Part shown: piece after piece, positions 10,608 to 51,700 of the stretch | How positions within the stretch are numbered: position 1 is the first letter of the stretch | How the letters are laid out: the number at the start of each line of letters is the position of its first letter | Source of the DNA: Acidobacteriota bacterium | GTDB lineage: Bacteria > Acidobacteriota > UBA890 > WLXD01 | Direction of reading: 5' to 3' | Assembly: GCA_012103255.1 (NCBI GenBank) | Contig: WLXD01000003.1 | Coordinates: forward strand, 391,984-455,983 | DNA: 64,000 bases | Made by a program: the position numbers and the translations under genes | Notes under the pieces: model-generated | What the model saw: the letters and a program-made list of their open reading frames with translations, nothing else | Databases searched by the model: none | Told to the model about the DNA's origin: nothing

Positions 10608-11850
10608 CAACCGCGCCAAGTTTCTGCTATTTCCGCTCGCTCTGGGTCTCGTGCTGGGCCTCGGATTTTTCGTCGGCCTCGGCCTGACCAGAAGCGGCGA
10701 CGCGGCCGCGCGCGAGGAGCCGGCACCCGAACGGGCGACCGCGGCCGTGACGGTCGAGCCGCCCGCGGATGGACCCGTCGATTCGGCGCCGATCGAGAGC
10801 GAGGCCAGCCCTGTCAGCGCTACCGAGCAACAGGTCGCGCCGGCACCCATCGGCGGGTTTCCGGACGGACGCGAACGCCTCACGATGGCTGAGCGCTCGA
10901 CGATCGAGATGTTCGAGAGTCTCTCTCCGTCGGTCGTGTTCGTAACGTCGATTGCTGAACGCAGAGATTTTTTTAGTATGCCCATTGGCGAATACGAAGC
11001 CGGTCGCGGGTCGGGTTTTGTTTGGGACAAGGACGGGCACATCGTCACGAACTTCCACGTCGTTGCGAGCGCGACGGCCGGCCTGAAGGTGACCCTCGCC
11101 AACCAGACCGTGCTGGATGCCGACATCGTCGGGATGGCCCCCGAGAAGGACCTTGCGGTGTTGCGGGTCTATCATGATCCGACTGAGCTGGAGCCTATTC
11201 CAGTGGGCCGCTCCGATGACCTCCTCGTCGGGCAGAACGTGCTGGCAATTGGCAATCCGTTTGGTCTGGATCAGACGCTGACCACCGGCATCAGCAGCGC
11301 CCTTGGCCGGACCATCGCTTCGGCCGACAACGACTCCGACATCAATGACGTCATCCAGACGGACGCCGCAATCAACCCGGGCAACTCGGGCGGGCCGCTG
11401 ATCGACTCGTCGGGTCGCCTCATCGGGGTGAACACCGCCATCGCCAGTCCTTCCGGCGCCTATGCCGGTGTGGGCTTCGCCATCCCCGTGGATACTGTGA
11501 GATGGGTCGTGCCCGACCTGATTCAGCACGGGCGGGTTCAGCGACCCAGTCTTGGTTTCACACACTGGGATATCAGTGTGAACCGGCGGTACAACTTCGC
11601 GGGAGTGATGGTCAGAACGGTCACTCCCGAGGGTTCAGCCTCGACGGCGGGCTTGCAAGGCACGTATCGGGACGAGCGCGGCAGAGTGGTGTTCGGTGAT
11701 GTGGTCACGTCAGTAGCTGGCCAGCCTGTCGGAACGCCCGGCGACCTACTCCTGGTACTCGAATCTCTCGAGATCGGCGAGACGGTCCGCGTGACTTACA
11801 TGCGGCAACGTCGCGAGTACACCACAGAGATCGAGCTCGTCGAGCAGTAG
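10600..11850 (+). CDS. HtrA/Deg-type S1C serine protease with PDZ domain
   Basis: 416 residues. An N-terminal membrane segment (residues 8-30, rich in Gly and Leu) is followed by a Pro/Ala/Glu-rich linker to about residue 95. The trypsin-like domain carries the triad H153 (T-N-F-H-V-V), D184 (K-D-L-A-V-L) and S263 (G-N-S-G-G-P-L). A PDZ domain covers about residues 310-410. The single PDZ and uncleaved anchor resemble DegS or DegQ/HhoA types: a periplasmic protease for misfolded proteins or envelope-stress signalling. Divergent from the DNA glycosylase gene; preceded by a coupled short leader frame. Confidence 0.9.
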   Translation: MSDNRAKFLLFPLALGLVLGLGFFVGLGLTRSGDAAAREEPAPERATAAVTVEPPADGPVDSAPIESEASPVSATEQQVAPAPIGGFPDGRERLTMAERSTIEMFESLSPSVVFVTSIAERRDFFSMPIGEYEAGRGSGFVWDKDGHIVTNFHVVASATAGLKVTLANQTVLDADIVGMAPEKDLAVLRVYHDPTELEPIPVGRSDDLLVGQNVLAIGNPFGLDQTLTTGISSALGRTIASADNDSDINDVIQTDAAINPGNSGGPLIDSSGRLIGVNTAIASPSGAYAGVGFAIPVDTVRWVVPDLIQHGRVQRPSLGFTHWDISVNRRYNFAGVMVRTVTPEGSASTAGLQGTYRDERGRVVFGDVVTSVAGQPVGTPGDLLLVLESLEIGETVRVTYMRQRREYTTEIELVEQ

Positions 11851-37703: not shown

Positions 37704-39102
37704 CTAGGGAACCATCACCCGCGCCAGAATCCACGCCGTCATCAGCTCGAGAGCCTCGGGTGCAAACGTCTCCTCGATCGTGCCGTACTCGGCGACCGCG
37801 CCTGTGGTGGCGGTCTGGAAGAGATGGTTGAGTCGATCCAACCGACGCACCGTCACATCGTCGTTGCCGCCGCGCGCGAGCGCTGCTTCGATCGGTACGA
37901 GGTTCTGTTCAGCGTCGACCTGAAGATCGAGCGTGCCGTTCAGTGCCAGCACAGGCGCTGCGACCTGCTCGAGGAACGTCGCCGGATCGGTGTTCAGGAA
38001 GTATTGGAACCACGGGCTGGTCGCTTGCCGCTTCGCTGGCCCCCAGGCGCTCTCCCAAGCCTGATCGCGCGCCGCACCGGTGACGCCCTGCAACTGGTGC
38101 TCGAGCAGTGCGGTCAGGAGTGCGTCGATGATCTCCTCGTCGGCCCCCTCGGCCATCGCGTCCCAGAGAGGCTGCTGGCGAGAGATCTGCGCCTCGATGT
38201 AGGCTTCGGACGCGCCCGCGGCGCGCAGCAGTAGGTCGTTTTGCAGAGCGAGCACCTCGCGACCATCGACTCCGGTTCCCGCGAGCAACACGAGGAAGGC
38301 CAGCCGCGGGTCGTCAGAGGCGACGATCGGAGCGATAAGACCGCCCTCGCTGTGACCGATCAGACCAATCTGGTCCGGATCGATGTCCGACTGCTCGCGC
38401 AGAAACGCCACTCCTGCGGCTACATCGCCCGCGAAGTCAGCACTCGTGATGTCCGCTCGCGCGCCATCGGAACCACCGATGCCGCGATCATCGACCCGGA
38501 GCACCGCGATCCCTTGCCGGGAGAGATGGTCCGCAATCACCCAGAACGGCTTGTGGTTGAAGAGAGTCTCGTCCCGATCCTGGCTACCCGATCCAGTGAT
38601 CAGGATGGCGGCGGGGTGCCGCCCGTCGCCAGGCGGCACCGTCAATGTTCCCGCGAGAGTGTTGTTGTCGATCGGGTTCGTGTAGGTCACGTCGCGGGCG
38701 GAATACGGGAAGGGTGGCTGCGGCGTCTGAGGACGTGCCGGGCCCGTGTCCTCGCCTTCGCCGAGCAGTTCCATTGCGAGGGGTATCTCGACGCCCTGCG
38801 CCAGCGTCCCCGTCGCGGTCGGCGGCGAACACGGCGCCCGCCGCGGCGAGCGTGAATTCGATTCGACTGTCGGTGTAGACCACGTCCGCGACCGGGCCGT
38901 CGGTGAGGCCCTGCGCCGGAATCGACAGGGTCGCGGTCGGTTCTTCGCCGCTCAGTTCGAACGTCACGAAGAACTCGAGCTCACCAGTGCCGCCGGCTGC
39001 GGTCAGATCAACGGCGCCGCGCCAGCGTTCCGTCTCCTGCGCCTGGAGCGGGAATCCGACGAGCGCCACCGCCAAAGCCATCACAACTCGGATCCTCTTC
39101 AT
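37704..39102 (-). pseudogene. Secreted alpha/beta hydrolase split by a one-base frameshift
   Basis: The 5' part (39102 to about 38812) has a signal peptide ending L-Q-A-Q and the beta-rich N-terminal domain typical of this family, up to V-F-A-A-D-R-D-G. The rest (to 37704) continues in another frame: T-L-A-Q-G-V-E-I-P-L, R-P-Q-T-P-Q-P-P-F-P-Y, T-G-S-G-S-Q-D-R-D, nucleophile elbow G-H-S-E-G-G and a late D/H pair (D-L-Q-V-D, L-N-H-L-F). Removing one C from the C4 run at 38808-38811 joins them perfectly. About 465 residues when joined. Real lesion or homopolymer error. Confidence 0.82.
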
Positions 39103-39176
39103 AACTTCTCTCCGCTGGGGAATGCTGCTATTGCTTACCCCGGGTGTGCCGCCCGCCAGAAATTTCTTCGCCGCAA

Positions 39177-40238
39177 TCAGCCGACACGAGCAACCAGAGA
39201 CGCCTGGTCGGGCCGCGCGAGGGAGATCACGATCGGATCGTCCGCCTGACGCTCAAGGAAGTCATCTCGATTGTGGATTCCCTGCCATCCTTCGGCGATG
39301 AGCACCTGCGCTACCGCACCGCCGAGCGACTCGCCGGGACCCAGTGCCACGATGACGTCGGGCGCGTACTCGCGCAGCGCCACCCGCACGGTCGCCGCGA
39401 AGTCGAAGGTCTCTGTTACCTGGTGACCGAGGGTGTAGCTCAGCAGCGAGTCGGTCGACGTGGTGAGGGGTCGCCATTGCCTCCCCGTGCCATCAATCAG
39501 CGGCACCCGCGGCGCCTCCAGCGGCAGGCCCGCGAGCGCCTGGCGACCCGAGGTCGAAGCGTTGGACATCAGTTGCGAGTGGAAGGCCGAGTTACCCAGG
39601 AGTCGCAGCGGATACTCGGTCTTGCCGAGCTTCACCGTCGGCAGTGCCTCGGCCAGAGCGGCGATCGCCGCGTCATCGCCCCAAAGAACCCGCAGCCCAC
39701 CGAATCGGATCGAGTCGCCGGCGGCGTGCCCGTCCTCAACCACCTGGCGCAACGCGCGGTCGACCTGAACAGCACGGTCCGGAGACGGTCGCCAGTCATC
39801 GTCGACTACCGGATAGATCGACTGTCCGCCTACGACGCCATCTCGGGTCATGGCGCCCATGGTGCCGATCAGTTCGAAAGCGCCCTCGAGATCGAGCGCT
39901 CCGGCCGCCCAGAGCGCCGAGTACCAGCCCATGGAGTTGCCGCCCACCGCCACGACGTCTACCAGTTCAGGATCCAGTCGAAGGGCCTCGAAGGCAGTTA
40001 CCGCAAAGATCAGCGGTGCCGCGTTGTGGCCCTCGAGGAACGCTGATCGGAACTTCTCGGCGCCATCCATGCCGCGCACCGTGAGATCGCCGGCTGCTTC
40101 TCGGCGGGTGTCCACAGCCGCGACGGCCTGCGCCAACTCGGAAGCGCTGGGTGTGGCGTCCAACGCGCTCAGCGAGCCCAATTGTGCCTTGCCATAACTG
40201 GCCCGACCGGGGCAAAGCACCACAGCGCGGCGGCTCAT
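39177..40238 (-). CDS. FabD-like acyltransferase with altered acyl-binding site
   Basis: 353 residues. The malonyltransferase fold is recognisable: nucleophile elbow G-N-S102-M-G-W-Y-S-A-L, catalytic His220 in S-A-F-H-S-Q-L-M, and the C-terminal L-G-P-G-E-S-L. In an ungapped match to FabD around the active site, the Arg that binds the malonyl carboxylate (E. coli R117, 25 residues after the Ser) is Met127 here, and the N-terminal P-G-Q-G-S oxyanion motif reads P-G-R-A-S. It may therefore use a monocarboxylic acyl group. Start overlaps the E1 gene by four bases. Confidence 0.75.
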   Translation of the reverse strand: MSRRAVVLCPGRASYGKAQLGSLSALDATPSASELAQAVAAVDTRREAAGDLTVRGMDGAEKFRSAFLEGHNAAPLIFAVTAFEALRLDPELVDVVAVGGNSMGWYSALWAAGALDLEGAFELIGTMGAMTRDGVVGGQSIYPVVDDDWRPSPDRAVQVDRALRQVVEDGHAAGDSIRFGGLRVLWGDDAAIAALAEALPTVKLGKTEYPLRLLGNSAFHSQLMSNASTSGRQALAGLPLEAPRVPLIDGTGRQWRPLTTSTDSLLSYTLGHQVTETFDFAATVRVALREYAPDVIVALGPGESLGGAVAQVLIAEGWQGIHNRDDFLERQADDPIVISLARPDQASLVARVG

Positions 40239-42457
40239 GGCTGATCCCCCCGCAAGAGCGCGAGCGCATGCTCAACGATGCCCTCTTCCGAGGGAAGTAC
40301 CTGCTCCCAGGCTGGCCCAAGCGGAATGAACGTGTCCTCGCCGCAGTAGCGCGCCATGCGTGGGCTCGCCCCCGCGTCGACGATCGCCGTGATGATCGCC
40401 TCGGATACACCACCCGTACGTCGGCCCTCGTCAACAACCAGCACATTGCCGGTCGCTTCCGCCTCACGCACGAGCGTGCCCTCATCGAGCGGACTCAACC
40501 AACGCAGATCGACGACCCGCGCATCGACCCCGTGATCGCGGCGCAACGTGTCGGCCGCGCGCAACGATCGCCAGAGACCATTGGACCAACTCACCAGCGT
40601 CAGATCCGCGCCCCGGCCGTAAACTCGAGCGCCGCCCAACGGCACAGCGTTCCCCGGCGCTGGATAACTATCGCGCCACCCGTCGTCGCCATCGTCCACC
40701 AGGTCGCGCGTCATGTAGAGCGCGATCGGCTCGAGGAACAACGCGACCCGACCGTCGCGACGTGCGAGTGCCATGCAGGTTCGCAGCATGCCCACGGCGT
40801 CTTCGCCCCGCGAGGGCGCTGCGATCACTACGCCTGGGATATCCCGCAGCGCCGCGATGCTGTTGTCGTTGTGGAAATGGCCGCCGAATCCCTTCTGGTA
40901 TCCGAAGCTGGCGACCCGCACCACCATCGGGTTGCTGAATTGCCCGTTCGAGAAGAACTGCAGTGAAGAGGCCTCGCCACGGATCTGATCGAGGGCGTTG
41001 TGGATGTAGGCGAGGTACTGGATCTCCGGAATCGGCAGGAACCCGAGATGCGCGGCGCCGATAGCGACTCCGAGAATGCTCTGCTCGTCCAGGAGCGCAT
41101 TGAAGACGCGGCCGCCCCCGAACTTGCGCCAAAGCCCGGCGGTTACACCGTAGACGCCGCCACGTTTCGCCACATCCTCCCCAAAGGCGAGTGCCTCCGG
41201 ATACTGCAGCAGGAGATCGTGCAGGCCCCAGGAAAGCAGCTTGGCCAGGTGTTCCGGGCCCTGGTTCTCCGGGAGCTTGGCTTCGTCTCCCCAGTGCGCC
41301 AGGCGATCCTCATCAGTCGCCGCAGAGAGAGCCGTGATGTTGACGGCGCGCGACTCGTAGGGCGCCAGCGGCTCGACAATGGTCTCCACCGAGGTGTGCA
41401 GCGGACGCGTCTCAACCTCCGCAGCCGCCGCGGACACTCGCTGCCCGATCTCCTCGTAGGTCGCGAGCAGCTCGGCTGAATCTGCCAGGCCTGTACGAAG
41501 CGCGATCTCGCAGGAGCGCAGCAACGGATCACGCGCCTCGGCGGCCCGGATCCGTTCCATTCCCATATAGGCCAGCTCCGGGTCCGTTCCCGCATGACCG
41601 AGCAGGCGCACGACCTTCAGGTGCAAGAACACGGGAGCCCGCCTTGCCCGGCAATACTCCACCGCCCTGCGAGCTTGCGCGTACGCATCGACCAGGTCTG
41701 TACCGTCGGCCTTGAAGTACGGCATCGACAGGTCGCGGGCCCAGGTCTCTTCGACCCATCCGGCCGGTGTGTTCACGGAGATCCCGAGGCCGTTGTCCTC
41801 GCACACCCACACGACCGGCATCGGCAGGTGCTGGTAGGCAGCCCACCGTGAGGCGTTGAGCGCTCCGAGCGCTGTGGAATGATTTAGCGACGCGTCGCCG
41901 AACGAGCACACCACCACCGCGTCCGACGACACCTCCGGATCGTGGCCGAGGTAGCGAGCGCGATCGATGGCAAATGCCGCCCCCATCGCCTTGGGAAGCT
42001 GTGATGCGATCGTCGATGTCTGCGGCGGAATCCACATGTCGCGGGAACCGAACACCTTGTGACGACCACCCGAAATAGGGTCGTCCATGGCGGCGCACAG
42101 CGAGAGCAGTACGTCGAAAATCGGGGTCTGGGCCTCCACCTGTTTGGCCCGCTGCGCGAAGAAGGCACCGGAGCGGTAGTGCAGGAACGCTGGATCGTCC
42201 GGCCGCAACGCCGCGGCCACGGCCGCGTTGCCCTCGTGGCCCGCGCTGCCGATGGTGTAGTAGCCGGTGCCCCGCTCTTTCAGCCGGCGAGCCTCGAGAT
42301 CCAGATGCCGGGCCTGGAATTGCGACTCGACCAGGTCGAGAAACTCTGACCCGGAGATTGCGGACGACGGGCGCTCCGTCCCATCCGCGGCGCCGTCCCA
42401 CCCCTGCAGGAAGTCCCGCAGGTTGCGGTCGACGACCTCGGCGCGAGTTCGGCTCAT
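40235..42457 (-). CDS. Fused alpha-beta thiamine-dependent 2-oxoacid dehydrogenase E1
   Basis: 740 residues. The E1-alpha half (about 30-380) has R-S-G-A-F-F, the thiamine-diphosphate motif G-D-A-S-L-N-H ending in E-D-N-G-L-G-I-S, and H-L-K-V-V-R-L-L-G-H. The E1-beta half (about 400-735) has F-G-E-D-V-A-K-R-G-G-V-Y-G-V-T, L-D-E-Q-S-I-L-G-V-A-I-G-A, P-E-I-Q-Y and the C-terminal D-L-R-W-L-S-P-L-D. Such fusions resemble branched-chain E1. It should decarboxylate a 2-oxoacid, but no E2 or E3 gene is adjacent. It lies 11 bases after the RND pump and is coupled to the acyltransferase. Confidence 0.88.
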   Translation of the reverse strand: MSRTRAEVVDRNLRDFLQGWDGAADGTERPSSAISGSEFLDLVESQFQARHLDLEARRLKERGTGYYTIGSAGHEGNAAVAAALRPDDPAFLHYRSGAFFAQRAKQVEAQTPIFDVLLSLCAAMDDPISGGRHKVFGSRDMWIPPQTSTIASQLPKAMGAAFAIDRARYLGHDPEVSSDAVVVCSFGDASLNHSTALGALNASRWAAYQHLPMPVVWVCEDNGLGISVNTPAGWVEETWARDLSMPYFKADGTDLVDAYAQARRAVEYCRARRAPVFLHLKVVRLLGHAGTDPELAYMGMERIRAAEARDPLLRSCEIALRTGLADSAELLATYEEIGQRVSAAAAEVETRPLHTSVETIVEPLAPYESRAVNITALSAATDEDRLAHWGDEAKLPENQGPEHLAKLLSWGLHDLLLQYPEALAFGEDVAKRGGVYGVTAGLWRKFGGGRVFNALLDEQSILGVAIGAAHLGFLPIPEIQYLAYIHNALDQIRGEASSLQFFSNGQFSNPMVVRVASFGYQKGFGGHFHNDNSIAALRDIPGVVIAAPSRGEDAVGMLRTCMALARRDGRVALFLEPIALYMTRDLVDDGDDGWRDSYPAPGNAVPLGGARVYGRGADLTLVSWSNGLWRSLRAADTLRRDHGVDARVVDLRWLSPLDEGTLVREAEATGNVLVVDEGRRTGGVSEAIITAIVDAGASPRMARYCGEDTFIPLGPAWEQVLPSEEGIVEHALALLRGDQP

Positions 42458-42468
42458 GGGACGGACAT

Positions 42469-45400
42469 TCAGGCGCCGGCCGGCACCGGCGCGTCGTCAT
42501 GGTCGGGGTCGCGGCGGAAGAGGCGACGAGCCTCCATGGTGAGCGAGAACACCGCAGGAACCAGGAAGAGCGTGAAGAGAGTCGAGACGGCCAGTCCGCC
42601 GACGACGACGCTTCCTAAACCTCGATAGATCTCCGACCCCGCCCCGGTCACCAGCACCAGCGGAGCCATGCCCATCACCGACGTCATGCTGCTCATGAAG
42701 ATCGGTCGGATCCGGTCGGCCACGGCATCGCGCAACGCTTCGCGATACGGCAGATGTCGGTCACGCATGTAGTTCAGCGTCTGATGCACGATCAGAATCG
42801 CGTTGTTCACCACGATGCCGATCAGGATGACGAAACCCAGCATGGCCACGACGTCCAGGGCCTGGTACGCGACAAACGCGTTCACGAGCCCGAGCCCAAT
42901 GAACCCGCCCACCGCCGCAAACGGCACAGAAAACAGGATCACAAACGGGTACACGAAGGATTCGAAGAGTGCCGCCATGAGCAAGTAGGTCACCAGCAAA
43001 GCCAGAAGGAAGTTGCCCTGCAGAGACTGCCGCGCGGCGGTGAGTTTGTCCGCCGTGCCCGCCAGCTCGGCCTGATACGGAGCCGCCAGCGAACCGTCCG
43101 CCCGCATGGGGCCGAGGATCTGATCTTCGATGTGTCGCATCGCCGCTTCGAGCGGCTGAGTCTGCGGCGGCACCACCTGGATCGTGACCGTCCGCTCACG
43201 CTCCTTGTGATTCACCTGCGTGGGGCCCGTGGTCTCCGAGATCCGGCTCACATCACCGACACTCACCACGCGCCCATTCGGAGTGGCGATGTTGAGCCCC
43301 TCGATATCCTGGCTGCGGCTGGCGTAGGCCGAGGCGCCGCGCAGGATCAGGTCAATCGCCTTGCCTTCGTACTGGTACTCACTGACTTTCACGCCGTCGA
43401 CGAGAACGTTGAGCGCGAATCCAATGTCCTGAGCTGTGAGCCCGAGCTGCGCTGCGCGCTCGCGATCTGGCACGACGCGTACTTCCGGGTTCCCGAGGTC
43501 GAGGCTCGGTAGCGGCTGAGCCTGGGCTCCTGGCATTGTCGCGTTCACAGCGCCGAAAACCCGCCCACCGAGTTCGAGGAGACGCGGCAACTCGGGGCCA
43601 GTGAGATCGATATCGATCGCACGGCCGGCGTCGGAGCCGGACTGGAACATCGAGGGCTGCTGAACGATTCCAAATGCGCCCGGGATAGAGTTCAGCACGC
43701 CCTGTAGAACCGGTACGGCCTCGCCGGTTCGGTCGGCGTATTCCTGATGCCCGATCCCGCCCATGAAGGCGCCGCCGGCGAAAGAAACGAAGAAGAAGTG
43801 CTCGATCGGTGGCCCGGCCAGATCCGCCTCGCCCGGGTCCCCGGGCGCCGTGTTCCAGTAGGGGGCAAGACGCTGCTCGACGTGATCGGCGATGTTCACG
43901 AATTCGGCAGGGTTGTATCCTGGCGGCGGGATCACGAGACCGAACGCGAAGTTCTGGTTGCCGGTCGGCAGGTACTCGGTCTCGGGCATCAGCGCATAGG
44001 CGGCAACCACAGCGCCGATGGTGAGCACCAGCACGGCGACAATCTGAACCGTGATCGATCCCGACAATCGGTAGACCGCATCGGCTATGCCTCTGGTGAC
44101 GCGAGCGCCGGCACGTGCAAGGAGACCAGGCTCGGCATCCTCGTCCCGTTTCTTCGCCGTTTTCAGCACGCGCGCGGCCATGCTCGGGATCACAGTGATC
44201 GACACAACCAGCGAGATCATCACCGCGGAACACACAGCCACCGCGATGTCACGGAAGAGCTGACCTGCCTCGTCCTGAACGAAGAGCACCGGCAGGAAGA
44301 CGACCACGGTGGTCAGAACTGAGGCCAGGACCGCGCCCCACACCTCCACAGCGCCGTCGTAGGCCGCCTGCAGGCGCCGCTTCCCCATTTCCTGGTGCCG
44401 ATAGATATTCTCCAGCACCACGATCGAAGCATCCACGATCATGCCCACCGCGAACGCCATTCCGGCGAGCGACACAACGTTGATGTTCCGACCCAGCAGC
44501 CGCATCACCAGAAAGGTCGCAACAACGCTCACCGGGATCGCGAGGCCGATCACCAGCGTGCTCGAGGCACTCCGCAGGAACAGGAACAGCACGACGACGG
44601 CCAACAAGCCGCCGATCACGATGTTGCGCTGGACCAGGCTGATCGCTCGCTGGATGTAGTCCGACTCGGCAAAGGCGACGTTGAGCTCCATCCCCTTCTC
44701 GGCCAACTCGCCGTCGTTGAGCTGGTCGACCGCTTCGCGCAGATCGTCCATAACGGAAAGTACGTTCGAGCCTTGACGCCGCAAGATGGCGAACGCCATC
44801 GATGGTTGGCCCTGATTGCGCATCACCTGGGTGGCGTCGGCGAAGCCGAGATTTACTGTGGCGACGTCGCGGACGTAAACGGGAGCGTCGGATCGCCAGG
44901 CGAGCACGACGTCCTCGACCTGCTCAGGGTCCGTGTACTGGCCGACCGTGCGCACCACGTACGCGCGTTTGCCCTCATCGAAGTCGCCGGCGCTGACATC
45001 GCGGTTCTCCGCGTCCAGAGCGGCGGCCACCTGGCTCAGAGTGAGACCGCGCACCGCCAGCTTCTGTGGGTCCACGGTGACGTGTAGTTCGCGTCCTCGG
45101 CCGCCATAGATGTTCGCCACCGCGACACCGTCGACGCGCTCCAGCCTTGGCTTGATCACGTCCTCGGCGAACTGGCGCTCGAGGTCGATATCGATGTCAA
45201 CACCATCGCGGGCCACCAGCACCATCCAGGCAATCGCCGACTGCTCGAACGGATCCTTGCTCGTGATCACGGGGCGCAATGCGTTCTGCGGGTAGCGCTG
45301 CACCTGCTGGAGCGCGTTGTTGACCCGCATCAGTAGCGCTTCTTGATCGGATCCAACCCTGAAACGTAGTCGGATCATGCCGCTCGACTGGCGACTCTCG

Positions 45401-45645
45401 CTGGTCATCTCGACCAGGCCTTCCAGCGACTTCAGTTGATCTTCCTGTTTCTGCGTGATCTCGGTCTCGATCTCTTCCGGAGAAGCGCCAGGCCACACGG
45501 TCGTGACGATGGCCTGCGGGACGTCCACGTCGGGGATCAACTGCACGGGAATGCTGAAGAGCGCGAGCATGCCGAAGAGCGCAACGAGGAGCACCGCTAC
45601 GGTGACGCTGACAGGGAACCGGATTGCCGAGTCGACGAGTTTCAT
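42469..45645 (-). CDS. RND efflux pump inner-membrane permease (HAE1-like)
   Basis: 1058 residues, full length, with twelve expected helices in two halves and two large periplasmic loops. Landmarks: the N-terminal helix V-T-V-A-V-L-L-V-A-L-F-G-M-L-A-L, the loop P-G-A-S-P-E-E-I-E-T-E-I, the TM4 proton-relay region G-M-I-V-D-A-S-I-V-V-L-E-N-I and a later I-V-V-N-N-A-I-L-I-V counterpart. It exports small molecules or lipids by proton antiport together with the adaptor encoded just upstream; no outer-membrane channel gene is in the window. Start overlaps the adaptor stop by four bases. Confidence 0.93.
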   Translation of the reverse strand: MKLVDSAIRFPVSVTVAVLLVALFGMLALFSIPVQLIPDVDVPQAIVTTVWPGASPEEIETEITQKQEDQLKSLEGLVEMTSESRQSSGMIRLRFRVGSDQEALLMRVNNALQQVQRYPQNALRPVITSKDPFEQSAIAWMVLVARDGVDIDIDLERQFAEDVIKPRLERVDGVAVANIYGGRGRELHVTVDPQKLAVRGLTLSQVAAALDAENRDVSAGDFDEGKRAYVVRTVGQYTDPEQVEDVVLAWRSDAPVYVRDVATVNLGFADATQVMRNQGQPSMAFAILRRQGSNVLSVMDDLREAVDQLNDGELAEKGMELNVAFAESDYIQRAISLVQRNIVIGGLLAVVVLFLFLRSASSTLVIGLAIPVSVVATFLVMRLLGRNINVVSLAGMAFAVGMIVDASIVVLENIYRHQEMGKRRLQAAYDGAVEVWGAVLASVLTTVVVFLPVLFVQDEAGQLFRDIAVAVCSAVMISLVVSITVIPSMAARVLKTAKKRDEDAEPGLLARAGARVTRGIADAVYRLSGSITVQIVAVLVLTIGAVVAAYALMPETEYLPTGNQNFAFGLVIPPPGYNPAEFVNIADHVEQRLAPYWNTAPGDPGEADLAGPPIEHFFFVSFAGGAFMGGIGHQEYADRTGEAVPVLQGVLNSIPGAFGIVQQPSMFQSGSDAGRAIDIDLTGPELPRLLELGGRVFGAVNATMPGAQAQPLPSLDLGNPEVRVVPDRERAAQLGLTAQDIGFALNVLVDGVKVSEYQYEGKAIDLILRGASAYASRSQDIEGLNIATPNGRVVSVGDVSRISETTGPTQVNHKERERTVTIQVVPPQTQPLEAAMRHIEDQILGPMRADGSLAAPYQAELAGTADKLTAARQSLQGNFLLALLVTYLLMAALFESFVYPFVILFSVPFAAVGGFIGLGLVNAFVAYQALDVVAMLGFVILIGIVVNNAILIVHQTLNYMRDRHLPYREALRDAVADRIRPIFMSSMTSVMGMAPLVLVTGAGSEIYRGLGSVVVGGLAVSTLFTLFLVPAVFSLTMEARRLFRRDPDHDDAPVPAGA

Positions 45646-46916
45646 TGCGCTGACTCACGCGGATCGACAGCAATCGGCCGGTCCGGATCCGCCTCCGGCA
45701 CCGCGGGCGTGCGCAGATTGGCGACGGTCACTGGCTGCCCGGGGAAAACGCGTTCATTGCCACGCACGATCAGCAAGTCGCCCGGGCTCACCGGTCCGTA
45801 GACCACCTGCCACTCGCCGCGCGCCGGGCCGGCTTCCACGCTCACCTGCGTGACCGATCCCACGCTCCCCTCGCCCAGTGGCGCGCCCGGATCGCCTCCC
45901 ATGGCGGATGGGTCGACCCGGAAGACAAGCACCTGATCGCCGCGACGAACGACCACGTCCTTGCTTACTAGCACAGCGGCCTGGGGCGAACCCAACTGAG
46001 CGCTGACCCGAGCGGCCATGCCGCCTTTGATCGCGAGGTCGCGGTTCGGAATGCGGATGAGAACGGGGAACGTGCGCGCTTCCGGGACCGCTTCAGGAAT
46101 GACCGCCTGGACTCGGCCCGTGTAGGGCCGGCCGGGCAGCGCGTCGAACGTCACGTCGACCTGGAAACCGACCGGCACCGCGGAGATGTAGCGCTCCGCG
46201 ATCTGCACAGCCACTTCGACCACCGACAAATCGAGCAGCGACAGTAGCTGGTCGCCACGACCGACCCACTCCCCGACTTCGACATGCACCGCCGCGACGC
46301 GGCCGGCGAAAGGCGCCTTGATACTGGCTCGATCGAACTGGTCCTGGAGCTGGGACACTTCGGCGTCGAGTCGCACAACCGCCTGAGAGAGTGCGTCACG
46401 ATCAGCGAGCGCCTGGTCGTACTCCCGTGCGGAAATCACTTGCCGGTCACGCAAGCTGGCGAGTCGTTCGAAGTCCGCCGTAGCACGCGCGAGGCGAGCC
46501 TGCGTCTCGTCACGCGAGGCAGCCGCAGCGGCGAGGCGTTGCTCGACAGTCGTCGTGCGCAGACGGGCCAGCACCTGGCCCTCACGCACCGCGTCGCCCT
46601 CGTCGACGAAGAGCTCGGCCGCGAGGCCGTCGACTTCACTGGCCACGGAGGAGTCGCGCCTCGGACGCGCGGTGCCCAGAAGCTGAACACGCTCTGCGGC
46701 GATGGTCTCGACGGCGGCGATGGCGTCCACCGGAGGCGCTGCCGGGAACATTCCGGCTGGCGGTCCACCTTGGCCGGCGCCAGCACCCGCGGCTCCGGCA
46801 GCGGGCAGGCCGCCAAGGGTCCACCAGGCGCCGATCAGCACGAGCACTCCACCGAGCAGGGCTCCCATGAGCACCGCAACGATCGTGGGCATACGACGGG
46901 CAGATGTATCAGTCAC
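45642..46916 (-). CDS. RND efflux pump periplasmic adaptor (membrane fusion protein)
   Basis: 424 residues from a GTG at 46916 with AGAGG about six bases upstream; the frame reaches 46973 without likeness. One N-terminal membrane helix (residues 10-30) precedes a Gly/Ala/Pro-rich linker. The lipoyl/hairpin part has V-D-G-L-A-A-E-L-F-V-D-E-G-D-A-V-R-E-G-Q and, after a coiled-coil hairpin, I-K-A-P-F-A-G-R-V-A-A-V-H-V-E-V-G-E-W-V. Beta-barrel and proximal domains follow. It links the pump to an outer-membrane channel. First gene of a four-gene unit. Confidence 0.9.
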   Translation of the reverse strand: MTDTSARRMPTIVAVLMGALLGGVLVLIGAWWTLGGLPAAGAAGAGAGQGGPPAGMFPAAPPVDAIAAVETIAAERVQLLGTARPRRDSSVASEVDGLAAELFVDEGDAVREGQVLARLRTTTVEQRLAAAAASRDETQARLARATADFERLASLRDRQVISAREYDQALADRDALSQAVVRLDAEVSQLQDQFDRASIKAPFAGRVAAVHVEVGEWVGRGDQLLSLLDLSVVEVAVQIAERYISAVPVGFQVDVTFDALPGRPYTGRVQAVIPEAVPEARTFPVLIRIPNRDLAIKGGMAARVSAQLGSPQAAVLVSKDVVVRRGDQVLVFRVDPSAMGGDPGAPLGEGSVGSVTQVSVEAGPARGEWQVVYGPVSPGDLLIVRGNERVFPGQPVTVANLRTPAVPEADPDRPIAVDPRESAQ

Positions 46917-47011
46917 AACGTCCTCTGGGGAGCTACGCGGGGAGCGGCAGCTAGAACGAGCGTACGCCCGCATAGACGCCGCGGCAAGACGGTTTCAGAC
47001 CTGCGGAACGG

Positions 47012-48748
47012 CTACTCGCCCGTGACCGAGAGGGGTCGCGACGCCGTGACGCCCTGCTGTTGATGAACGACCAGTTCGTGGTCCAGCGCGTCGGCCAGTG
47101 CCAGAGCATCTAGCTCGGTGACACTGCCGTCAGGCCACTGAATGCTCACCGAGTCGACCGCGGTGTGACCCCCCAACCCAAACGTCAGCACGAACTCGCT
47201 TTGCGATGCGTACGATGACCCAGAACGCACCATCTGGCGCTGAGTCCATTCCCCGGCAGTGACATCGACAACCGCGCCTAGGGCTCTCGTGTTGCCGCCG
47301 TCGGCCCGCAGGTCGAGCCGCAGAACGCCAGGCCTGTCGGCGGCACCGGAACGTGCGGTGTTCTCTAACAGGTATGCGGGGCCATTGTTGGTCGTTACGA
47401 CGATGTCCAGGTCGCCGTCACGGTCCAGATCCGCGTGAGCTGCGCCACGCCCAACGATCGGCAACGCGAGGGGGCCGGCGGCGCCGGCGGCGTCACCGAA
47501 GGTGCCATCACCGCGATTGCGGAACAGCAGAGGCCGCTGCTCGTAGGTGATGCTGGCTTCGATCTCGGCAATCCGATCCTCGAGATGTCCGTTCGCGGCG
47601 AACATGTCCAGCCAGCCGTCGAGGTCGTAGTCGAAGAAGAAGAGCCCGAACGTGAGGAAGGGGAAACTGCTGCGACCAATGCCGGCCTGCCCAGCCACGT
47701 CGATAAACACGCCACCGGGCTGGAGTTCGAACAGCCCGATCATCTCCTTGCTGAAGTTGCCAATCGCGAGACTCAGATCGCCGGTGTTCTTCAGGTCCGC
47801 CGTATCGATGCCCATCCCGGCGCGGGCACGGCCGGAGGCATCGAAAGCCATGCCGGAGAGCAGTCCGATCTCTTCGAAGGTGCCGTCCTGTTGGTTGCGG
47901 AAAAGGAAATTGGGCTCGGTGTCGTTGGCGACGGCGAAGTCGAGCCAACCGTCTCTGTCGACGTCCGTGACGGCGATCCCCAGAGACTTCCCGCCGGACA
48001 CGAATACGCCGGCCTCGCGACTCGCATCCACGAACGTTCCGTTGCCCTCGTTGCGGAACAGGATCGACGGCTCGCCGACGTACGACTCCGGCGTGCAATA
48101 CGACTTCTCGGTGCCGTCCAGCGAGCACCAGATGTCCTCATCAGGGGTCCAACGCACGTAGTTGGCGAGGTAGAGATCCAGGTCACCGTCGCGGTCATGG
48201 TCGAGCCAGGCAGCCGACGTGCCCCAACCGTCGTGCCCGAGTCCGCTGCTCTCTGTGACTTCCTCGAACCGTCCACTGCCATCGTTCCGGAACATGCGGT
48301 TCGGACCGTATGCGGTCACGTAGACGTCGAGATCGCCGTCGCCGTCGTAGTCAGCCGGCGCTGCTCCGAACCCATACATCGGCACAGCCAGCCCCGAAGC
48401 CTCGGTGATGTCCTGAAAGGTGCCATCGCCCTGGTTGCGGAAGAGCTGCATCGTGACATCACGCCGCTCCGCGGCGACCGCATCCTCATGCCCTGCCCAG
48501 GGGCCACCCTGAACAAAGAGAATGTCGGTCCAGTCGTCGCCATCCGCATCGAATAGCGCAACGCCCGCGCCGAGGCTCTCAGGCATCCACCGGTCGCCGA
48601 ATGCCCCACTGACGTGTACGAAGTCGACTCCCGAAGCCGCTGTCACATCGCGAAAGACGTCGTCATCGGTAGCGCCGCGCACTTCCTGCCCGGAGAGCAC
48701 GGAAAGAACGAAGCAAACCGCCATGACAGCCGCCCTCGATGCTCTCAC
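47012..48748 (-). CDS. Secreted CRTAC1-family protein (FG-GAP/VCBS propeller with ASPIC/UnbV)
   Basis: 578 residues, signal peptide to about residue 25. At least six Asp-rich calcium-binding blades: D-A-D-G-D-D-W-T-D, D-Y-D-G-D-G-D-L-D-V-Y, D-H-D-R-D-G-D-L-D-L-Y, D-V-D-R-D-G-W-L-D, D-Y-D-L-D-G-W-L-D and D-L-D-R-D-G-D-L-D. The last 110 residues form an ASPIC/UnbV domain (S-I-Q-W-P-D-G-S). Probably extracellular or periplasmic and involved in binding; activity unknown. Its start overlaps the cytochrome gene by four bases, so the two products likely work together. Confidence 0.9.
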   Translation of the reverse strand: MRASRAAVMAVCFVLSVLSGQEVRGATDDDVFRDVTAASGVDFVHVSGAFGDRWMPESLGAGVALFDADGDDWTDILFVQGGPWAGHEDAVAAERRDVTMQLFRNQGDGTFQDITEASGLAVPMYGFGAAPADYDGDGDLDVYVTAYGPNRMFRNDGSGRFEEVTESSGLGHDGWGTSAAWLDHDRDGDLDLYLANYVRWTPDEDIWCSLDGTEKSYCTPESYVGEPSILFRNEGNGTFVDASREAGVFVSGGKSLGIAVTDVDRDGWLDFAVANDTEPNFLFRNQQDGTFEEIGLLSGMAFDASGRARAGMGIDTADLKNTGDLSLAIGNFSKEMIGLFELQPGGVFIDVAGQAGIGRSSFPFLTFGLFFFDYDLDGWLDMFAANGHLEDRIAEIEASITYEQRPLLFRNRGDGTFGDAAGAAGPLALPIVGRGAAHADLDRDGDLDIVVTTNNGPAYLLENTARSGAADRPGVLRLDLRADGGNTRALGAVVDVTAGEWTQRQMVRSGSSYASQSEFVLTFGLGGHTAVDSVSIQWPDGSVTELDALALADALDHELVVHQQQGVTASRPLSVTGE

Positions 48749-51258
48749 TGCTCACCGCCGGCTTTCGTCGCGGGTCGATCGGGTCGACGCCACGGTGGCA
48801 GCGGACCCGCGTATTCAACGGGCGCGCGCCAGTAACGGCCGCCCTCGAGCCACTCGGTGAACGGGAATCGATCCGCCGCGCTGAACCTCGCACCGGGCGG
48901 CATGAGCACGTGGCTGTGAATCGACTGCGCCTCGCGGTTGATCACCGGGTTGTCGCGCTTGAACGGACCGGTGAGCTGACGAATGTCCTCGTCCTCGCGA
49001 TAGCGCAGGTACCGCGACTCGTGGATCTCCGCCTTCTCCGTTTCTCCCATCGCCCGATAGGCAAGCATCAGGTTGTAATGAGCGCCCAGTTCTTCTGGGT
49101 CGATCTGATTGATGACGAACAGCAGGGGCTCAATCGCATCTTCGTAGCGCCGCGTGAGGTAGTAGGTGTTGCCGAGGTCAATCTGCACCGCACGATCGTA
49201 GGCGTAGTCCTCGACGACCCCCTCCAGCAGTTCAGCCGCGCGAGCGTACTCGCCGAAGCCGCGCGCTACCTGGGCCAGGAAGTAGTTGGCCTTGCCGAAA
49301 CCTGGCTCGATCGCCAGCGCGCTCTGCAATGCGGTTTCGGCCTGCACGAGGTTGCCCTCCTGGAGATGCACACGAGCCTCGTTCACGAAAGCATCGGCAT
49401 AGTCGGGGGCGAGTCGCTGCACGTGACGGAACTGACTCAACGCCGCCCGCAGGTCGCCCTGTCGCAGCAGCCCGATTCCGTAATCGTTGAATCGCATGGC
49501 GTCCGACGGAGCCTCGCCAATCAGATCGCGAATCAGCGACTCGCCGTTCACAGTCGGCGACTCCGCCGACTCGGCGAAGGTCACGCTCGTCTCATCGAGC
49601 ACCACGACCGGCAACTCCGGCACCAGACTGTCGTCGTAGTCCCAGACGCGCGTATCAACCGCGGGCAGGCTGACTGCATCTGCGGGCTGCTCGATCGACG
49701 GCGTCGCGCCCATCGCCCAGCGGTTGTACGACTGCTTGTGCTTCCGGTAGTTCAGACGCGCGCGCAGAGTGAGCGGCCCCTGCACCTCCGCAGGCACCGT
49801 GAAGCTGTAGTGCGCGGTGTCGGCGGCGCCGGGCGGAATGAAGCGCACGTAGACCGGCGTGCGCCGATCCCAGCCGTTGCGCTTGTCGATAACCTGCCCC
49901 GCCTCATCCAGGAAGATCCCCCGGTACGAGTGCGCCGCCTCTTCGATGAACCGATCCTCGGCCATGCCGCCCGACATGAGCACCGGCTGGCCATTGCCAT
50001 CGAGAAGAGTCACCTCCAGCCAACTCATGTTGCTGTCGGTGGTCCCGCCGGTGAACTGGTGGCCCACGCCGCGCGTGCGCACGACGATCTCTGCTCGCAC
50101 CTCCGTGCCCGCCGGCAGGGCGAGCTCCTGATCTGCGATGGGGGCTACACGAGTGGCCGCGTCACCGCGAACTACATCGAGAGCGAAGATGTCGACTGTC
50201 ACTTGATCCGCCTGCAGGAACGCAGCCGTTTCTTCGAGCTGCTTCGTGTAGCCGTGCAGCGCCGGTAGAGCTGTGTTCGAGCCCACGAACCGGTGTGACG
50301 CCACGAAGCCGTCGTCGTTGCCGGCATCGGTGGATGCCACCTCAGGCATGTGGCAGTCCTGGCACTGGAGCGGATTCTCCGGGAAATAGAACGACCTGAC
50401 GGACGCGCCACTCACCCCGCTGTTCTGCCAGCCATCGTATTCATCGAAACCCCGGAACCACTTGTAGTTGTTGACCGGTGTGATCAGCGATTGCTTGTGG
50501 CAGGTCGCACAGAACTGCGACAGCCCGTGGAAGGTACTCCGTCGACGCGAACTGTGGCGCCGGATCAAATCGGGATCAGCGAGCAACTCCGCGTTCCCCG
50601 CCGCGCGCAGTTCGGGGTCGGTGGTCCCGGCGTTTGGCAGGGCTGCCGCCGGCGCAAGCCGGAAGGATCCGTTGGCGAGAGCCGGGTGGACCCGATCGAC
50701 GCTGTGACAGAACTGGCAGGAGATGCCGATGTTGGCCGCTGCCGAGTCGAAGTCGATCTCCTCGCCGGCCTGCATCTTCCCCGTCATCATCAAGGCGGGG
50801 TCGTGGCATCCGGCGCACCACTGCGACGTCTTCACGTCGGTGCGTTCTTGAATGAACTGCACGCTGCGGCGGTACCAGGGATCGCTCATCGAAGCGAGGT
50901 GGTGCGTCGACTCGAACCACATGTCGTAGATGTCAGGGTGGCACGACAGATCGCCACAGCGCTCTACGTCCATCAACTGCGCCTGCGAATAGAAATCGCC
51001 CGATCGCGTGGACGCCGACGACGGATACCAGGGAGAGTCGGGGTCGAGCGGCAACTCGGTGAACCGATAGCCCTCCAGGTGTGGTCCGGACTCGTAGTAG
51101 CTCGGATGACTGGTGGGGTCGGAGTAGTCGTCTTCCTGCTGGCCGAACAACGCCACGGCATCCGCCCCGAGCGCAAGAATCACGCCGGAAACGCCAAGCG
51201 CCAATGCCCATAGGCCGGCGCGCCCGCTAGGGGACAACCGAGTACGCAGGTCAGCCAT
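48745..51258 (-). CDS. Pentaheme c-type cytochrome with C-terminal TPR repeats
   Basis: 837 residues. One N-terminal hydrophobic segment (15-38) exports it. Heme-attachment motifs: an unusual C101-x4-C-H107, then C148-A-G-C-H, C181-Q-F-C-H, C250-A-T-C-H and C299-Q-D-C-H. The middle part (about 320-540) is beta-rich. From about residue 590 there are TPR repeats (G-L-L-R-Q-G-D-L-R-A-A-L-S, A-R-V-H-L-Q-E-G-N-L-V-Q-A-E, A-H-Y-N-L-M-L-A-Y-R). It probably passes electrons in the periplasm within a complex. Coupled to the CRTAC1 gene. Confidence 0.9.
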   Translation of the reverse strand: MADLRTRLSPSGRAGLWALALGVSGVILALGADAVALFGQQEDDYSDPTSHPSYYESGPHLEGYRFTELPLDPDSPWYPSSASTRSGDFYSQAQLMDVERCGDLSCHPDIYDMWFESTHHLASMSDPWYRRSVQFIQERTDVKTSQWCAGCHDPALMMTGKMQAGEEIDFDSAAANIGISCQFCHSVDRVHPALANGSFRLAPAAALPNAGTTDPELRAAGNAELLADPDLIRRHSSRRRSTFHGLSQFCATCHKQSLITPVNNYKWFRGFDEYDGWQNSGVSGASVRSFYFPENPLQCQDCHMPEVASTDAGNDDGFVASHRFVGSNTALPALHGYTKQLEETAAFLQADQVTVDIFALDVVRGDAATRVAPIADQELALPAGTEVRAEIVVRTRGVGHQFTGGTTDSNMSWLEVTLLDGNGQPVLMSGGMAEDRFIEEAAHSYRGIFLDEAGQVIDKRNGWDRRTPVYVRFIPPGAADTAHYSFTVPAEVQGPLTLRARLNYRKHKQSYNRWAMGATPSIEQPADAVSLPAVDTRVWDYDDSLVPELPVVVLDETSVTFAESAESPTVNGESLIRDLIGEAPSDAMRFNDYGIGLLRQGDLRAALSQFRHVQRLAPDYADAFVNEARVHLQEGNLVQAETALQSALAIEPGFGKANYFLAQVARGFGEYARAAELLEGVVEDYAYDRAVQIDLGNTYYLTRRYEDAIEPLLFVINQIDPEELGAHYNLMLAYRAMGETEKAEIHESRYLRYREDEDIRQLTGPFKRDNPVINREAQSIHSHVLMPPGARFSAADRFPFTEWLEGGRYWRAPVEYAGPLPPWRRPDRPATKAGGEQ

Positions 51259-51328
51259 CCGGAAACTATGCCACGGTGTCGCGGCCGTGCCACGTCCCGG
51301 CTGCGGCGCAGGAGTGCCGGGCGGACGC

Positions 51329-51700
51329 CTAGCTCTGGCGCACGGCGCCGATCACGGCTTCCATGTGCGACACGTAACGATCGAGGCTCGCCCGACCTTC
51401 CTTGGTCAAGCTGTAGACGCTGCGTGGCGATCGGCCCACGAAGCCTTTCTCACACGTCACGTAGCCGACGTCTTCCAGCTTGCGCGCGTGCACGCTGAGA
51501 TTGCCGTCACTCACACCGAGCAGTGACTTCAAATCGCCAAAGCTGAGCTCGTCGTTGACAGCCAGCGCGCTCACGAGCGCGAGGCGGACCGGCTGATGAA
51601 TCACTCGATCGAGATCGCGCGCCTCTGCCGCGCCACCCAGAACTACGTCCGGTGCTTCGTTCGCCGCCGCGGCCTGCGTCTTGCGTTTGGGCTGTGCCAT
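51329..51700 (-). CDS. Winged-helix transcriptional regulator (ArsR/MarR-like)
   Basis: 123 residues. The domain begins at R-V-I-H-Q-P-V-R-L-A-L-V-S-A-L and has the helix-turn-helix L-S-F-G-D-L-K-S-L-L-G-V-S-D-G-N-L-S-V-H followed by a wing with P-R-S-V-Y-S-L-T. It follows the membrane protein gene by one base, so it is likely to be in the same transcript and to control it. Such regulator/membrane protein pairs are common; the signal is unknown. Confidence 0.87.
   Translation of the reverse strand: MAQPKRKTQAAAANEAPDVVLGGAAEARDLDRVIHQPVRLALVSALAVNDELSFGDLKSLLGVSDGNLSVHARKLEDVGYVTCEKGFVGRSPRSVYSLTKEGRASLDRYVSHMEAVIGAVRQS

Follow-up and report, generated by a model that had tools for sequence, protein, structure and literature searches.

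A fused 2-oxo acid dehydrogenase E1 and a FabD-fold acyltransferase (AT), encoded side by side in an Acidobacteriota bacterium, make up a two-gene pair that recurs in many phyla and is a conserved, apparently undescribed unit. We predict, with a probability of about two in three, that this pair is a bacterial 2-oxoadipate dehydrogenase unit with 2-oxoadipate as its substrate, an activity that is well supported by neighbouring genes and by genome co-occurrence; its lipoyl dependence and the step carried out by AT are inferences. 2-Oxoadipate arises in the breakdown of lysine and tryptophan, amino acids from which bacteria reach glutaryl-CoA. In the library searched we found no paper assigning a bacterial gene to the step from 2-oxoadipate to glutaryl-CoA, and nothing relevant on the pair itself, which is a concrete candidate for that step in many phyla. 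Its current annotation is only generic ('alpha-ketoacid dehydrogenase' and 'ACP S-malonyltransferase').

ORF calls in the window, a stretch of 64,000 nucleotides of contig WLXD01000003.1, place the pair on the minus strand behind the genes of an RND efflux pump, in the order adaptor, pump, E1 and AT. The coordinates confirm the spacing given in a preliminary description of this DNA (adaptor and pump overlap by 4 bases, pump and E1 are separated by 11, and E1 and AT overlap by 4), and domain profile matches agree with its reading of the four gene families. The same-strand run is longer than these four genes, as three further genes lie upstream. The features are the following:

51329-51700, same strand, upstream: winged-helix regulator
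48745-51258, same strand, upstream: TPR/cytochrome-c554 protein
47012-48748, same strand, upstream of the adaptor: ASPIC/FG-GAP protein
45642-46973, minus: RND periplasmic adaptor (HlyD_D23/RND_mfp, RND_mfp above cut-off), kept with the pump in relatives
42469-45645, minus: RND pump (ACR_tran, E 1e-206), with orthologues in relatives without E1-AT
40235-42457, minus: 2-oxo acid dehydrogenase E1 with alpha and beta fused, 740 aa (E1_dh, Transket_pyr and Transketolase_C in one chain); proposed 2-oxoadipate decarboxylase/dehydrogenase
39177-40238, minus: FabD-fold AT, 353 aa, with GNSMGWY and Ser102/His220 (FabD/MdcH-like, below cut-off); proposed glutaryl transferase
39118-39176, minus: boundary of the two-gene block (GAAGAAA...GGCGGCACA), from sequence comparison with the related loci L140, L141 and L145

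The adaptor starts with an ATG at 46973; at 46916, the start given previously, there is a GTG in the same frame, 19 codons downstream.

A strict gene pair in many phyla

A profile scan of GTDB genomes for AT yielded 79 loci. The scan used AT motifs only, so that pairing with an E1 was not built into it. Its seeds were GNS[ML]GWY and GGQ-YP, whose conservation is therefore partly by construction; AT residues Arg12, Arg46, Trp149, His220 and Gln273, and all E1 residues, are non-seed positions. An E1 gene is located directly upstream of AT on the same strand in 77 of the 79 loci, which is far beyond chance, and in the remaining two the contig begins at most 243 bases before AT. The most frequent junction between the two genes is an overlap of 4 or 8 bases (28 of 48 measured). 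According to their records, the carriers belong to Acidobacteriota, Planctomycetota, Bdellovibrionota, Myxococcota, Marinimicrobia, Chloroflexota and Proteobacteria. The window E1 clusters with relatives of the same order with a support of 1.0, and is therefore probably native to that order.

No E2 was detected in the 83 loci scanned, and an E3-like match was present in only two; the pair thus departs from the 2-oxo acid dehydrogenase complexes in which E2 and E3 are encoded together with E1. E2 genes of the window genome are located on contigs C1, C2 and C8, where other E1-type genes adjoin them. The idea in the preliminary description of a unit that makes an acyl group remains plausible in view of a fused E1 that lacks a local E2 or E3, adjoins a variant AT and recurs in this order across phyla; the part in which the pump exports the product is not supported (see below).

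Long ORFs in loci L066, L084 and L095 were considered as E1-AT gene fusions and rejected, because they lie in another frame than E1. In eight loci (L087, at 11002-11511, and L046, L050, L053, L063, L069, L075 and L102) the gene immediately behind AT is HD-domain phosphohydrolase-like. Three loci with the pair (L053, L088 and L089) come from MAG records whose titles give Klebsiella pneumoniae or Bifidobacterium breve as the organism, labels that look wrong.

Residues and folds of E1 and AT

The E1 has the three domains and the ThDP/Mg and catalytic residues of alpha/beta-type 2-oxo acid dehydrogenases, and is closest in sequence to the E1 of pyruvate (PDH) and branched-chain (BCKDH) dehydrogenases. 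Its AlphaFold model has a pLDDT of 87.6, and 149 alignment columns reach a conservation of 95% or more among 73 relatives. It shares domains, ThDP site and the catalytic Glu and His with the alpha2-beta2 E1 of BCKDH and PDH (Thermus 1UM9, human 1DTW), but differs from these in having alpha and beta fused, in being encoded without adjacent E2 and E3, in always having AT behind it, and in an Arg-His-Lys that never varies, located where the alignment places the substrate pocket. Glu458, His288, His529 and Arg132-His133-Lys134 are present in 73 of 73 sequences. Besides the catalytic Glu458, the E1 keeps His288 and His529, which correspond, in an alignment by eye, to His291-alpha and His146-beta of human BCKDH. 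PDB titles give these two BCKDH residues a role in lipoyl acylation, which makes a lipoyl acceptor likely. Arg132-His133-Lys134 lies in the segment aligned, with a one-residue ambiguity, with Met128-His131 of the Thermus E1, which we take to be the substrate pocket, and these basic residues would suit the distal carboxylate of a substrate.

The AlphaFold model of AT (pLDDT 94.9) has FabD proteins as its best PDB folds. Ser102 and His220 are present in 77 of 77 sequences, and AT has the fold and the Ser-His dyad of FabD malonyl-CoA:ACP transacylase and of MdcH. It differs from both in having GNSMGWY for GHSxGE, a hydrophobic malonate-Arg position (Met, Leu, Val, Ile or Thr in the 77 ATs) and Arg for the oxyanion Gln. 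In FabD the Arg binds the malonyl carboxylate and the Gln serves the oxyanion. The score of AT for the curated FabD/malonyl-CoA:ACP transacylase family, 44.1 bits, is far below the cut-off of 260.9. At residue 216 (39591-39593), four residues before His220, 74 of 77 ATs have His, and the window protein has Asn.

Neighbour genes and the predicted reaction

The gene that recurs beside the pair encodes glutaryl-CoA dehydrogenase (GCDH), as judged by similarity and by the motifs SGxRS, with the substrate Arg, and YEGT[HE], with the catalytic Glu. Twelve of the 79 loci have it next to the pair, as do all three plasmids with the pair; gene orders vary, and at least four lineages are represented. Among the 12 loci it lies downstream in Marinimicrobia, divergent and 70 to 309 bases from E1 in Bdellovibrionota, and upstream in gammaproteobacteria. 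The best PDB matches of the Marinimicrobia copy are GCDHs (1e-113 or better, versus 1e-72 for the next family), and the Ruegeria copy matches a GCDH in the PDB with 1e-191. In most loci, however, GCDH is not adjacent; moreover, the enzyme also serves glutarate catabolism, and its presence is therefore no proof of a 2-oxoadipate route. Acyl-CoA dehydrogenases of L053, L063, L069, L088 and L096 were rejected as GCDHs (24-28% identity, motifs lacking).

Two Ruegeria plasmids carry, in this order, a LysR regulator, a PLP aminotransferase, GCDH, E1 and AT, which would read as a path from 2-aminoadipate through 2-oxoadipate and glutaryl-CoA to crotonyl-CoA; 2-aminoadipate is the presumed substrate of an aminotransferase whose PDB relatives are of the aspartate type. 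In Amphritea an HglS-family gene precedes GCDH-E1-AT, and the characterised HglS member acts on 2-oxoadipate (PMC7286885). HglS, a 2-oxoadipate dioxygenase/decarboxylase, would thus share its substrate with E1, but it is an iron oxygenase that yields 2-hydroxyglutarate and not glutaryl-CoA. One Oligoflexales locus (L040) has an aldehyde dehydrogenase (ALDH) like 2-aminomuconate-semialdehyde dehydrogenase three genes downstream of AT, and a KynB-like cyclase with a weak PDB match to isatin hydrolase. The ALDHs of L045 and L082, about 30% identical to that of L040, were left out as support, and an aminotransferase-V gene in L035/L036 was rejected as kynureninase, since it matches PvdN/cysteine-desulfurase models.

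At the level of whole genomes, GCDH is present in 45 of 50 pair-bearing genomes, and none was seen in the other five. These and the following counts are uncorrected for ancestry and assembly completeness, and the control genomes were unscreened for further carriers of the pair. In Planctomycetota GCDH occurs in 15 of 16 carriers versus 45 of 93 controls (p=5e-4), and tryptophan 2,3-dioxygenase in 16 of 16 versus 38 of 93 (p=4e-6). In Acidobacteria GCDH occurs in 5 of 5 carriers versus 31 of 55 relatives, a difference that is not significant (p=0.07). The co-occurrence of saccharopine dehydrogenase was mixed (31/55). The window genome encodes GCDH at C2:78036-79181, and a tryptophan dioxygenase at C6:450981-451754 beside a 2-aminobenzoyl-CoA-type monooxygenase/reductase. 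The latter cluster (L196, contig 6, 4924-10763) comprises tryptophan 2,3-dioxygenase, the monooxygenase/reductase as a fused gene, a CDGSH protein, an acyl-CoA dehydrogenase and an enoyl-CoA hydratase, and is likely to serve tryptophan/anthranilate breakdown; it suggests a 2-aminobenzoyl-CoA route, which need not pass through 2-oxoadipate.

In the reaction that we propose, E1 would decarboxylate 2-oxoadipate on thiamine diphosphate and hand the glutaryl group to the lipoyl arm of a putative carrier encoded elsewhere. The serine of AT, an enzyme with an altered acyl pocket, would then accept glutaryl from dihydrolipoyl and give it to CoA in place of the acyltransferase core of E2, and GCDH would convert the glutaryl-CoA to crotonyl-CoA. 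We put the odds of this AT step slightly below even. The broader proposal is more tentative still: many phyla would have a 2-oxo acid dehydrogenase of a new kind, in which a FabD-fold Ser-His AT replaces the E2 catalytic core on the way from 2-oxoadipate to glutaryl-CoA. Should AT indeed do the work of the E2 core, a very well studied enzyme class would have a second chemical way of releasing its acyl group. The human 2-oxoadipate dehydrogenase complex (OADHc; DHTKD1 with the shared DLST E2) catalyses the same reaction as that proposed here, and in both the E1 would rely on components encoded elsewhere. DHTKD1, however, is an OGDH-type and not an alpha/beta-type E1, and the human complex has no FabD-like acyltransferase. 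As in OADHc, a shared E2 could form glutaryl-CoA without AT.

Glutaryl-CoA might then be made by E1 and a shared E2, with AT editing or salvaging glutaryl groups stuck on lipoyl. A precedent is ABHD11, which clears such groups from the shared lipoyl E2 in mitochondria, where glutaryl-lipoyl adducts call for a Ser-His enzyme (PMC12643935), and the genomic evidence for a glutaryl substrate applies to this role equally. The likeness is one of analogy and not homology: ABHD11 is an alpha/beta hydrolase, unrelated in sequence to AT, and hydrolyses instead of transferring, whereas AT has a transferase fold. The strict pairing is also more in keeping with an indispensable step than with an accessory role, and we regard an editing role as unlikely, at perhaps one chance in five.

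A somewhat smaller chance attaches to AT charging an acyl carrier protein with the acyl product of E1, for a lipid, a biotin-type (BioZ-like) route or a secondary product, with GCDH as a parallel drain. FabD-fold enzymes do load carrier proteins, these are encoded elsewhere in the window genome, and BioZ is fed by glutaryl-CoA in alphaproteobacteria (PMC7645780). Nevertheless, no carrier protein or ketosynthase recurs among the neighbour families scanned, a result that also led us to reject a branched-lipid or polyketide module, and the Ruegeria operon reads as catabolic. The branched acyl lipid suggested in the preliminary description as the product finds no support either, since the recurrent neighbours point instead to glutaryl-CoA.

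It is less probable again that E1, like its nearest solved relatives, takes pyruvate or a branched-chain 2-oxo acid as its substrate and that its GCDH neighbours are unrelated: although the nearest sequences are those of PDH and BCKDH E1, this would leave aside the adjacency of GCDH in at least four lineages with differing gene orders, the HglS homologue, and the family-invariant basic residues in the pocket-aligned segment.

The pump as a neighbour

The adaptor and the pump together, an ACR_tran permease with an RND adaptor, have the make-up of a HAE1-type RND efflux pump; no outer-membrane channel was found among the neighbouring genes scanned around it. The preliminary description regarded pump and enzymes as one unit whose product the pump exports, a view for which the single strand and the tight gene spacing speak, but which is hardly tenable given syntenic pump loci without the pair and 79 other AT loci without the pump.

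In two genomes of the same genus (L140 and L141) the run of TPR, ASPIC, adaptor, pump, hydrolase and PduO genes is intact, without E1-AT inside, and a short contig from the same family that starts within the pump gene (L145) likewise has pump, hydrolase and PduO without the pair; the syntenic pump locus lacks E1-AT in genomes G001, G002 and G003. The sequence GAAGAAA...GGCGGCACA follows the pump stop codon in L140, L141 and L145 and begins just behind the AT stop codon in the window, a shift that implies a clean two-gene block gained here or lost there. Orthologues of both pump and pair are present in another genome of the same order (G007), on different contigs. Pump, adaptor and ASPIC genes are absent from the flanks of all 79 other AT loci of the GTDB scan, which vary in length and extend 5 kb or more to either side in 37 loci. 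Among the loci examined, the four-gene order turned out to be unique to the source genome, an outcome that the preliminary description had itself named as refuting its proposal.

On the evidence of synteny we reject a functional unit of pump and enzymes: the pump neighbourhood of E1-AT is a local accident of position, and in our reading what the pair makes is not handled by the pump. The pair may here be read from the promoter of the pump operon. A search of 38700-47200 for sigma-70-like promoters gave none, a result of little weight as the chance expectation was only 0.8.

Behind AT, an alpha/beta hydrolase gene (37704-39102, minus) is broken up over two reading frames (38584-39102 and 37704-38774). 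It is a single long frame in L140, L141 and L145, and the split in the window reflects either genuine loss of an intact frame or a fault in the assembly. The run of regulator, TPR/cytochrome-c554 and ASPIC/FG-GAP genes ahead of adaptor and pump (47012-51700) is also kept in the same-genus genomes, and these genes may be the real partners of the pump.
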